A stretch of 7,632 nucleotides of DNA, taken from NCBI GenBank assembly GCA_003696125.1, contig RFHZ01000718.1, forward strand, positions 1 to 7,632, read 5' to 3'. This DNA comes from Nitrospinota bacterium (GTDB lineage Bacteria > Tectomicrobia > Entotheonellia > J063). Each line of letters opens with the position of its first letter. The stretch's first letter is position 1. Positions 3,009 through 7,632 of this stretch are shown piece after piece. The position numbers and the translations under genes are program-made. The notes beneath the pieces are model-generated. The model was not told the DNA's origin. It ran no database searches and was given only the letters and a program-made list of their open reading frames with translations.

Positions 3009-3638
3009 TTAGCCTTCACCCGCTTCTGCTGTCTCCGCTCCGGGTATCGTAATCCCCCGTGCACGGAGGGCACAGAGTTCAGGGTGATCCACTCCCAAAA
3101 CCTCTTCGAAAAAGCTTAGTGGCCGGTAGCGATGACAGAAGATCATGGCTGTCCACACCTCGTCCGCCCGCAGGGCATGTCGATCCTGGAACCAATGGAT
3201 CGTTTGCCTGATCCGGTCGAGATAACAGCCATAGGAGATAACCCTTTCTCCCGCTTTGATCCGTTGTGGCTCTTTTACATCGGTCCCATAAATCGTCAGT
3301 ACCCCACAGAGCAGGGTGACATACTCCTCTCCGAGGATGACCCAGGGGTCATCAGGCGCGTTGGGATTGGGCAGCAGGCGAAAATGCCGCTTTTCCGGCA
3401 CGATGCCTCCGCGTTGAGGGATGGTAAGGAATTGATGCTCCTCGTAACTCCCATCAGAATGGGGGAAACAACCGAACACCCCGGAATAACAGTACCCCCG
3501 GTTGAGTAACCGCACTTCGGGCAGCGCATGCAAAGACAGGCCATGCTGCCTGGCATATGCTTCCAGAACCGGCATGAAGAGCTCTGGATAGATCGCCGCG
3601 ATCTGTTCCCTGATGAGGGGAAAGGGAACGGTATCCAT
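3009..3638 (-). CDS. Unrecognised 209-aa protein
   Basis: I do not recognise this family. The product is soluble-looking, with no signal peptide or transmembrane segment. It opens with a short helical region (MDTVPFPLIREQIAAIYPEL), followed by a Tyr/Cys/Phe-rich section (RGYCYSGVFGCFPHSDGSYEEH, residues 47-68, no CxxC pair), a Pro-rich turn (LLPNPNAPDDPW), and a C-terminal half rich in aromatic and basic residues (YLDRIRQTIHWFQDRHALRADEV). Six Cys lie at 50, 57, 111, 138, 168 and 189. The chosen ATG has GGAGGGAG about ten bases upstream. A GTG two codons earlier (3644) has even better spacing and is a real alternative. A longer frame from a TTG at 3704 is rejected because it would run through the ribosome-binding site. 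Its own promoter and palindrome precede it, and the dehydrogenase gene follows 42 bases later, hinting at a linked role that cannot be named. Confidence 0.8.
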   Translation of the reverse strand: MDTVPFPLIREQIAAIYPELFMPVLEAYARQHGLSLHALPEVRLLNRGYCYSGVFGCFPHSDGSYEEHQFLTIPQRGGIVPEKRHFRLLPNPNAPDDPWVILGEEYVTLLCGVLTIYGTDVKEPQRIKAGERVISYGCYLDRIRQTIHWFQDRHALRADEVWTAMIFCHRYRPLSFFEEVLGVDHPELCALRARGITIPGAETAEAGEG

Positions 3639-3695
3639 AGGCACAACACTCCCTCCTCTTTTCCTATCAGCGATAGCCCAGTTCCCGCCAGGCAA

Positions 3696-3718
3696 ACAGG
3701 ACAAAGTCTTTCTCCTGT
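3696..3718 (-). promoter_or_regulatory. 23-bp palindrome over the predicted transcription start (candidate operator)
   Basis: Arms ACAGGACAAAG (3696-3706) and CTTTCTCCTGT (3708-3718) pair at 10 of 11 positions around a single central T at 3707. The predicted +1 of the minus-strand promoter at 3725-3753 falls at about 3718, so the dyad covers roughly +1 to +23, a classic repressor position. It could instead form a hairpin at the extreme 5' end of the mRNA. A second small dyad in the same leader, CTATC-AGC-GATAG (3664-3676), lies closer to the ribosome-binding site. Confidence 0.55.
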
Positions 3719-5378: not shown

Positions 5379-7340
5379 TCACTCTTTCCGTTTCTTTACC
5401 ACTCCTTTACGGGAAATATCACAGACAATGGTCAGAGGGACTCCGAAGAGGAGGAAGAGCTCGTGCAGGAGCAGGTTCCGGTACTCTTCCGTCTCCAGGA
5501 GCTCTTTTTGAAACCGATGCGAGGCGGGAAAGGTGATGGTCAGGATCCCCTGCCGGAGCGCCGTCGGTTGAGCCTCGGCGAGAATGGATTCGAGCGATTT
5601 CCGCTTCTTCCCGATTTGCCTGATAATGTGGGGCCACATCTGGCGGATTTGCGACAAAAGGGTCTGCGAGAAGGGCTCGGTAGCAGAGGACGACGGGGGA
5701 GAGGATTTCTCCGGTGTCGCGGCAGGAGATGCGGTTGGAGAGGGTTTGGCCGGGGGGGTCACACCGTGTGCCGGCCAGGATAAGGGGAGAGAGGGTTGGG
5801 CCGCCTGTTGAGTCGCCTTTCCTTTCTGGGGCTTAAAGAAGAACTGCGTCTCTCCGGCCGTATTGATCCCTTCCAGGCTGTCCACTTCAAAGATGATCGG
5901 GTACTGGCGGGTGGCATCCCCCAGCACCAGGCTGTGGTGGTTACGCAGGCGTTTGACAAAAGAGCTCATCGTCTGCTGATCGGTAAGGGCGCTCTTCCCG
6001 ATATGCTTCACATCATCATCAAAGGGGAGGCGGGTAATGAAGAGGTTATCGACCTGTCGCAGTACCGTTTCATCCAGCCCCCCGACCATGTTGGTCACAA
6101 AGAAGCAGGTGACTCCCAGGTGACGCGCCCGTGTCACAATATAGCCGATCGTATTGCGATTGATGTAGAGATGCGCTTCTTCGAAGAAGACAAAGGGGAA
6201 GCGATCCGTTTTCTGGGCAATCTCCTGCTCGCAGATCTCCCGGATGATCTCGATGATCGCCTGCACGAATCCGTACCGGGCAAGGTTGGAGAGTTGAGAG
6301 AGATCGATGACCAGCGCTCCTCCTTCCCGAATCAACCGGTACTGGTCCTGCAACGAGACCGCTTCGCTGGGACTGGAGGCAAAGACCCCGGTATTACGGA
6401 TAGCCTCTAAGCGACTCAGAATGGCCCCGTTTACCACATCACTTCCCGAAAACTCGTAATTCTGCGCCATGCGAATCAGGTCTTCTATACCGAGGAAAGG
6501 AGCGGCGATACCGCGTTTTTCCTGTATCCGCATCTCCTCGAGCAGGCGGGAGAGCCGGTTTTCCACGTACATGGCCGAGACCTCGGGCAGACCGAACTTG
6601 GTCAGCATGGTGATGAGGGGGGCCAGCCCAAACTGGCGTACCCCGAGTTTTAAATTCCGGCCGGCCTGGAGATGAATGATCCCCGGGGAGATGACCTCAC
6701 CGGTCTGCTCATCGATCACATGCCTGGGGAGATGGATATACTCTCGATTCAGATCAAAGACGATGGCAGGAGCACCATGCTTGATAAGCTGGAGGAGGAT
6801 GACTTTGGCCAGATGGGATTTTCCTGATCCCTTGACCCCGGTAATGATGTTGATCTTTTCCAGCGTGCGTCCTTCGATAAAGAAATCCCTGCCACTCAAG
6901 GTTTTCCCAAGGTGGAGAGGATTTCCCAGGTCTCCGATGCAGTTGGCAAACACCTCCTCATCTTCCGTTTTGGTGATAATGACATCCCGGGTAGGGATCC
7001 AGCCATCCCACTGATTCCACGGGGTACCGGTGAGCTTCCGCACCTTGGCGATGGCGATCTTGAGGTTTTTCAGGGGCACATTTTCGCTAAGCGTATTCAG
7101 GGTCAACGGCTCCACGAAAGAGGGAGGAAGGGCGCTACTGCCGCTGACCACCAGTTGGAGTTGCTCCTGGATGAGGGAAGGATAGGTAACGGTCTTAAAC
7201 TCGATGACCTGGACAATGATCCCCTGTCCACTCTCTCTCTCCAGGATACAGAGGTTCTCACCGATGCGCAGATCTGCTTCTTTCGGATTAAAGATCAGTT
7301 CAACGATATCCCCGGAAACCTGTTTAATCTCGATGCTCAT
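5379..7340 (-). CDS. HerA-like ATPase fused to a DnaX (tau)-like C-terminal domain
   Basis: This 653-aa protein is a HerA/DUF87-type ATPase, a family of hexameric DNA translocases related to FtsK. Residues 1 to about 65 look like the HAS-barrel that precedes HerA motors. Walker A is GVKGSGKS (168-175). Walker B is FVFFEEAH (383-390) with the EEAH ending typical of HerA. TRARHLGV (403-410) holds candidate arginine fingers, and FFVTNMVGGLDETVLRQVDN (413-432) corresponds to the usual TQ-containing sensor stretch, here with Asn in place of Gln. A Pro/Ser/Thr/Ala-rich linker spans about 505-556. Residues about 557-641 then match the pattern of the DNA polymerase III gamma/tau C-terminal domain: LSQIRQMWPHIIRQIGKKRK, SILAEAQPTALRQGILTITF, and an ending LLLHELFLLFGVPLTIVCDI. 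A basic tail, KKRKE, closes the protein. A modest AGGA site precedes the ATG. The gene follows mraZ by 82 bases. The usual HerA partner nuclease NurA is not in the window. The motor assignment is firm; the tau-like assignment rests on pattern. Confidence 0.9.
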   Translation of the reverse strand: MSIEIKQVSGDIVELIFNPKEADLRIGENLCILERESGQGIIVQVIEFKTVTYPSLIQEQLQLVVSGSSALPPSFVEPLTLNTLSENVPLKNLKIAIAKVRKLTGTPWNQWDGWIPTRDVIITKTEDEEVFANCIGDLGNPLHLGKTLSGRDFFIEGRTLEKINIITGVKGSGKSHLAKVILLQLIKHGAPAIVFDLNREYIHLPRHVIDEQTGEVISPGIIHLQAGRNLKLGVRQFGLAPLITMLTKFGLPEVSAMYVENRLSRLLEEMRIQEKRGIAAPFLGIEDLIRMAQNYEFSGSDVVNGAILSRLEAIRNTGVFASSPSEAVSLQDQYRLIREGGALVIDLSQLSNLARYGFVQAIIEIIREICEQEIAQKTDRFPFVFFEEAHLYINRNTIGYIVTRARHLGVTCFFVTNMVGGLDETVLRQVDNLFITRLPFDDDVKHIGKSALTDQQTMSSFVKRLRNHHSLVLGDATRQYPIIFEVDSLEGINTAGETQFFFKPQKGKATQQAAQPSLPLSWPAHGVTPPAKPSPTASPAATPEKSSPPSSSATEPFSQTLLSQIRQMWPHIIRQIGKKRKSLESILAEAQPTALRQGILTITFPASHRFQKELLETEEYRNLLLHELFLLFGVPLTIVCDISRKGVVKKRKE

Positions 7341-7422: not shown

Positions 7423-7632
7423 TCATAGGATATTCAGAATCTTGTTGAGTTCGGTCTCATGCACCTCTTCGATGCGACTCAGATACTGGGTCCAGAGCAC
7501 AGGACTCCAGAGTTCCAGCCGCTCGTATAATCCGACCACCATGACCTCACCCTCAATCTGGGCATAATCCCGTAACCGTTTCGGAATACAGATACGCCCA
7601 CTCTTATCCACTTCTGAGGTCAGGGATTCGGA
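7423..7632 (-). CDS. mraZ: MraZ transcriptional regulator, C-terminal half (5' end outside the window)
   Basis: The frame is open from the right edge and ends at 7423, giving the last 69 residues. MraZ is a small DNA-binding protein of about 143 residues built from two AbrB/SpoVT-like halves; it usually controls the division and cell-wall (dcw) cluster that it heads. The visible part is the second half: SEVDKSGRICIPKRLRDYA carries the DxxGRxxxP-type motif, followed by EGEVMVVGLYERLELWSPVL and a helical tail. It closely follows the B. subtilis MraZ C-terminus (CELDKQGRVNIASPLLNYA, then a VVIGVSNRIELWS stretch), including the ELWS and W-x-QY features. A GTG at 7611 lies mid-domain and is not the true start. 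The normal next gene, rsmH (mraW), is absent here; the HerA-like ATPase gene follows instead. A paralogue of MraZ with other targets is possible. Confidence 0.88.
   Translation of the reverse strand, partial: SESLTSEVDKSGRICIPKRLRDYAQIEGEVMVVGLYERLELWSPVLWTQYLSRIEEVHETELNKILNIL

Follow-up and report, generated by a model that had tools for sequence, protein, structure and literature searches.

What would a DNA motor of the HerA family do with a C-terminal domain of the kind found in DnaX (tau)? This question is raised by a gene at positions 5379..7340 on the reverse strand of the window, the whole stretch of 7,632 nucleotides that was analyzed (contig RFHZ01000718.1 of the Nitrospinota bacterium assembly GCA_003696125.1). 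The gene is complete: a single intact frame starts with ATG, runs without internal stops for 653 amino acids, and has its stop codon within the span. HerA motors have been described in the end resection of archaea and as parts of anti-phage systems. The preliminary description of this locus was aware of no HerA-tau fusion, and our literature searches likewise found no published HerA-tau or HerA-clamp link and no HerA joined to a replisome-docking domain.

The protein consists of a HerA core with an N-terminal domain and a RecA-like motor (residues 1-504, 5829..7340), a linker rich in Pro, Ser, Thr, and Ala that is evident from direct reading of the sequence (residues 505-558, 5667..5828), a DnaX_C domain that is similar to domain V of tau and belongs to the DnaA-N-terminal-like, KH-like type (residues 559-641, 5418..5666), and a short basic tail of low pLDDT (residues 642-653, 5382..5417), at which point genuine DnaX proteins continue into a terminal helix containing Phe; all these segments lie on the reverse strand. 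The coordinates, the composition of the linker, and the secondary-structure reading of the C-terminus given in the preliminary description all check out. Two further genomes, apparently from the window's own class and related to the little-known Tectomicrobia, encode the same full-length fusion at approximately 60% overall identity: a 'Candidatus Tectomicrobia' metagenome-assembled genome (MAG), KatS3mg131 (G003, locus L045), and a MAG labelled 'Proteobacteria' (G004, locus L041). Because the fusion recurs in these two independent assemblies, where Pfam model PF20964 (DnaX_C) also scores above its cut-off in genome searches, it is neither a chance match nor an assembly chimera; a frameshift chimera is ruled out on the same grounds. 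This architecture, in which a flexible linker joins a HerA motor to a DnaX_C-type domain, is thus well supported, and the joining of HerA to a tau-type domain is a new variation on HerA.

The assignment of the motor is straightforward. Residues 165-364 match the DUF87/HerA central domain (PF01935; E-value 2e-13, 51.4 bits against a Pfam cut-off of 23.2), and the nearest solved motor in a PDB sequence search is HerA 4d2i (E-value 7e-7). The Walker A motif GVKGSGKS (residues 168-175, 6816..6839, reverse strand) reads GVKG[SA]GKS across the three fused proteins, and the Walker B motif FVFFEEAH (residues 383-390, 6171..6194, reverse strand) is invariant across their alignment. On this profile evidence the protein is a member of the HerA ATPase family, and the HerA core proposed earlier is borne out. 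It shares with the archaeal and Deinococcus HerA proteins that work with NurA and Mre11-Rad50 the ATPase core of the HerA/FtsK superfamily with both Walker motifs, and its relatives share the repair-gene surroundings, including NurA and SbcD. However, it scores far below full-length HerA models and has no match to the HAS barrel (PF09378) at E<=1, whereas a second HerA encoded in L041 (HerA2) exceeds the cut-off of that model. It also departs from those HerA proteins in its partners, as in its relatives the fused protein pairs with RusA while the second HerA adjoins NurA, and in having a linker peptide that resembles a clamp motif together with a tail of the DnaX_C type.

Several comparisons identify the C-terminal domain. 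PF20964 matches residues 563-614 with 27.8 bits in the whole protein, against a curated cut-off of 26.2, and with 30.3 bits (last 150 residues) or 30.9 bits when the C-terminal part is searched alone. With the DnaX models of NCBIfam, the last ~140 residues align to DnaX C-termini, the best model being PRK14950 (E-value 2.5e-9 with the C-terminal 150 residues). In genome searches the tails of both relatives also exceed the PF20964 cut-off (36.9 bits in L045 and 27.3 bits in L041), although a scan of the full L041 protein gives 22.6 bits, under the cut-off; the L045 tail scores on a par with the DnaX of its own genome (36.3 bits). The three HerA tails, combined into a profile, aligned with hhalign to ten DnaX C-termini, which include DnaX sequences found by the query itself, with a probability of 98.7% (E-value 2.9e-16, 90 columns), and to four same-class DnaX tails, which were picked only with the DnaX N-terminal model TIGR02397 and are therefore independent of the query, with a probability of 95.1% (E-value 3e-8, 74 columns). 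The DnaX tau-type pattern that had been read by eye in these residues is thereby recovered with significant profile matches. The same-class DnaX proteins stood in for the C-terminus of the organism's own DnaX in the tail comparisons: the N-terminal part of its dnaX lies on another contig (C804) as a 161-residue frame ended by the contig edge, and a profile search found no second copy of PF20964 in this genome. Taken as a whole, the window protein is no DnaX, judging from its N-terminal part, which matches HerA and has neither the clamp-loader AAA+ domain nor the collar. In genuine DnaX the domain has the same profile and predicted fold and the same C-terminal place after a long, flexible, Pro/Ala-rich linker; unlike here, it is joined to the AAA+ core of the clamp loader.

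Structure prediction places this domain in a wider family. An AlphaFold model of the HerA tail, made with the three sequences (pLDDT 80), shows the order alpha-alpha-beta-beta-alpha-alpha-beta, and the model of a same-class DnaX tail (L020) has the same order of elements plus one extra terminal helix. Foldseek searches with the HerA tail returned DnaA domain I (4tps), DciA, and the C-terminal domain of E. coli tau (5fku, 2aya), with 4tps as the closest solved structure (TM-score by target 0.81, Z-score 11.1). Domain I of DnaA and the corresponding domain of DciA share the KH-like topology of the tail, and the best PDB matches among replication proteins are 4tps, 7ykm, and 8a3v. All belong to the DnaA-N-terminal-like (DANL) superfamily, whose domains serve for protein-protein contacts in replication (PMC5720831, PMC9825169) and whose members include DnaA, tau, DciA, and even FliK (PMC9825169). 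The top structural match of the genuine same-class DnaX tail is likewise 4tps; thus, a match to this structure cannot separate a DnaX-type tail from a DnaA-type one. An origin of the tail from DnaA domain I was hinted at by Foldseek and by 4tps in a PDB sequence search (E-value 0.04); however, the profile comparison disagrees, as hhalign matched the HerA tails to same-class DnaA domain I far more weakly than to DnaX tails (probability 2.4%, E-value 0.02). By sequence, the HerA tail is therefore nearest to the DnaX branch of the superfamily.

What the tail does not share with DnaX is the very end. In same-class DnaX proteins, the KH-like domain is followed by a terminal helix with an invariant Phe, and none of the three HerA tails has this helix. 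The contact of E. coli tau with Pol III alpha involves residues 611 to at least 636 and is lost when the C-terminus is removed (PMC11470591). Polymerase binding by the HerA tail is therefore not to be assumed; its sequence does not support such binding, which may have been lost.

The tail changes faster than the motor to which it is attached: among class members, identity is approximately 33% in the tail and 66% in the core, while the linker (approximately 27%) is poorly alignable. Between L045 and L041, dN and dS are 0.34 and 1.9 in the tail versus 0.13 and 1.4 in the core, so the tail of this pair is under purifying selection, with weaker constraint than the core. Outside the class, searches that covered 291 genomes of the phylum of an Armatimonadota relative and 386 widely spread genomes identified orthologues with 59-66% identity in four of the 291 genomes of the Armatimonadota set and in two of four genomes of another phylum (G394 and G660); a further search of the latter phylum recovered only the same two. 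All of these orthologues stop shortly past the core, and a DnaX-like tail is missing from each. Conservation of the fusion therefore holds for two relatives within the class and does not extend to orthologues in other lineages, and the tail is best read, from this distribution of sequences, as a lineage-specific add-on and not as a trait of the family. Within the phylum of the window, the fused gene (herA/tau) is present in three of five genomes and missing from the other two (G001 and G002). A phage, plasmid, or viral origin was rejected, as no relatives were found among viral contigs, phages, or plasmids.

The linker, despite its poor conservation, carries the motif Q-x-[SP]-L-P-L in each of the fused proteins, as QPSLPL in the window (residues 515-520, 5781..5798, reverse strand) and in L041, and as QAPLPL in L045. 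The tail-less orthologues in G394 and G660 have QPQLPL. The probability of QxxLPL in shuffled sequence is 0.0005 to 0.007 per linker, and among the 43,241 residues of open reading frames from the analyzed loci the pattern occurs eight times; five occurrences are in these HerA proteins and three elsewhere, and the five are partly dependent on one another, as G394 and G660 are close. Two patterns define the motifs that bind the beta clamp, Q-phi-x-[LM]-[FL] and Q-phi-x-[LM]-x-[FL]; the Hda peptide PAQLSLPLYL binds the clamp with a KD of 0.38 uM (PMC11139829). The HerA motif fits the second pattern save for position 2, which is Pro in all but L045 (Ala) instead of the favoured Leu. The AQPSLPL of the window and L041 differs by one residue from the AQLSLPL of Hda and likewise lies in a segment that is predicted, here from composition, to be flexible. 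On the other hand, it has Pro for Leu at position 2, and the Hda motif lies in a disordered N-terminus. We regard QPSLPL as a putative clamp-binding peptide, a reading whose support is statistical and for which the resemblance was noticed only after the sequences had been seen. As a separate observation, the tail-less proteins of G394 and G660 (L088 and L089) have QQATLFE at their C-terminus, a fit to the pentameric clamp motif, and two other HerA proteins (L044 and L087) end in QPR[NS]LFGEFF, which we take to be reminiscent of the motif in the delta subunit of the clamp loader.

The gene neighborhood in the relatives is one of recombination. In L041 (5165-13953) and L045 (4980-17869), a bacterial recA stands beside an archaeal-style HerA-NurA-Mre11-Rad50 set, in the order radA-recA-(mraZ)-herA/tau-rusA-nurA-HAS-herA2, where mraZ is found in L045 and HAS denotes the HAS-barrel gene; the L045 cluster continues with sbcD and a gene similar to sbcC. 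G001 offers a natural 'empty' version (L094, 229-11130), radA-recA-mraZ-nurA-HAS-herA2-sbcD-sbcC, in which mraZ again lies inside the cluster and herA/tau and rusA are missing; neither gene was found anywhere in the genomes of G001 and G002. In two Armatimonadota genomes, a tail-less HerA gene is followed by rusA. Because the two genes adjoin in L041 and L045 and are both missing from G001 and G002, and rusA also follows the tail-less HerA gene, HerA and RusA behave as a pair. In the window itself, the 3' part of a co-oriented mraZ (7426..7632, reverse strand; PF02381, E-value 1.2e-15) directly precedes herA/tau and is cut off by the end of the contig; recA is found on a separate contig among other neighbors, and rusA was not detected in this assembly of 990 contigs. 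A 231-residue open reading frame elsewhere in the window (3009-3704, reverse strand) has zero Pfam matches at E<=1 and zero PADLOC matches. Two loci from other genomes deserve mention in their own right: translated CRISPR-like repeats (FNPLKVGSE and other frames) lie directly upstream of the tail-less herA-rusA pair in one genome of the Armatimonadota set (G125; L098, 10436-14008), and a distant HerA gene (28% identity) lies directly downstream of a nurA-like gene, read by eye, in G357 (L097, 5862-8797).

The position of herA/tau among DNA-repair genes in two of the three genomes suggests a repair motor tethered to replication. We tentatively favour, at somewhat less than an even chance, a clamp- and replisome-tethered double-stranded DNA translocase of the HerA family that serves recombinational fork repair. 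HerA would form a ring on duplex DNA, its linker peptides would catch the sliding clamp, and the tau-like domains would engage a replisome protein, which could be the DnaB helicase, Pol III, or a protein that works with either. The motor would thereby be concentrated at stalled, broken, or post-replicative forks, where it might pump double-stranded DNA and so drive branch migration or clear DNA, letting its partner, the Holliday-junction resolvase RusA, and the neighboring RecA, NurA-HerA2, and SbcCD act. Docking on the replisome through tau had been proposed in the preliminary description; a connection to the replisome or the clamp is still the best reading, helped by the clamp-motif-like linker peptide and the relatives' repair-gene neighborhood, whereas the route through the polymerase is weakened by the absence of the terminal Phe helix. 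Docking itself is plausible but unproven. If it were true, it would connect a DNA pump of the HerA type directly to the replisome of bacteria and provide a new way of bringing a motor and a resolvase to forks. The stronger claim that these proteins represent a new class of fork-repair machine, in which a HerA translocase on two hooks (the beta-clamp peptide and the tau-type domain) is coupled to RusA as an alternative or supplement to fork processing of the RuvABC/RecG type in bacteria, strikes us as rather unlikely as it stands. A natural with-and-without comparison is on offer in the tail-bearing and tail-less orthologues and in the operons with and without the herA-rusA pair.

Several features tell against a tether to the replisome: the missing terminal peptide of the class DnaX, a tail that evolves faster than the motor (33% versus 66% identity), the recognition of the clamp motif post hoc with Pro or Ala in place of Leu, the failure to detect rusA in the window's own genome with recA elsewhere in it, and the two of five class members that live without the gene. 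The tail could instead be a generic docking module of the KH-like or DnaA-domain-I-like kind for a partner outside the replisome (RecA, RusA, NurA, or the ring itself during self-assembly), its likeness to DnaX reflecting only the common superfamily and the protein being a HerA of the usual kind within a cluster for double-strand-break repair. We consider this improbable, but a serious competitor, given that the closest solved structure is DnaA domain I, that the superfamily is broad enough to include FliK, that the gene lies beside recA, rusA, nurA, and herA2 in two relatives, and that the DnaX terminal peptide is absent. However, the profile-profile comparison strongly favours DnaX tails over DnaA domain I, 4tps is also the top structural hit of the same-class DnaX tail, those members of the superfamily that are best characterised work in replication, and the linker supplies a clamp-type peptide besides.

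Tethering to the replisome must also be weighed against two readings that turn on neighbors and distribution. HerA-RusA may be a horizontally moving module, for example for anti-phage or anti-plasmid DNA processing, that landed in a repair operon and whose tail and clamp peptide recognise replicating invader DNA. Its spread is indeed patchy (three of five, four of 291, and two of four genomes in the sets above), herA/tau and rusA are present or absent jointly inside one operon, PADLOC HerA models match, and one copy in the Armatimonadota set adjoins a CRISPR-like array. Yet the PADLOC matches are partial and extend to HerA2, the NCBIfam models of anti-phage HerA give 19 bits against a cut-off of 800 (NF042943) and 18.2 bits against one of 850 (NF042944), and the searches of plasmids, phages, and viral contigs returned no relatives. 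With anti-phage HerA systems the protein shares the ATPase superfamily; unlike them, it has no full-length family match and no known effector recognised beside the gene in the window or the class loci, and the neighborhood in two relatives is that of housekeeping repair. We judge a mobile module to be quite unlikely. Less likely still, to the point of being doubtful altogether, is that the motor is the translocase of the neighboring NurA nuclease in classical HerA-NurA end resection, with the tail merely recruiting it to broken forks. Although nurA lies two genes downstream of herA/tau in L041 and L045, and the gene of the distant G357 homologue (28% identity) comes right after one that resembles nurA by visual reading, the genes directly after nurA encode a HAS barrel and a second HerA with a better match (DUF87, E-value 3.7e-35), and nurA-HAS-herA2 remain together in G001, which has no HerA-tau. 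This reading is disfavored because NurA seems to be served by a HerA of its own.

A further observation concerns DnaA in the same group of genomes. Each of G001-G004 (L034-L038) carries a second DnaA-like gene that matches the DnaA model from position ~100-107 to 437 only and has no domain I, and in G003 this gene is split into two pieces.
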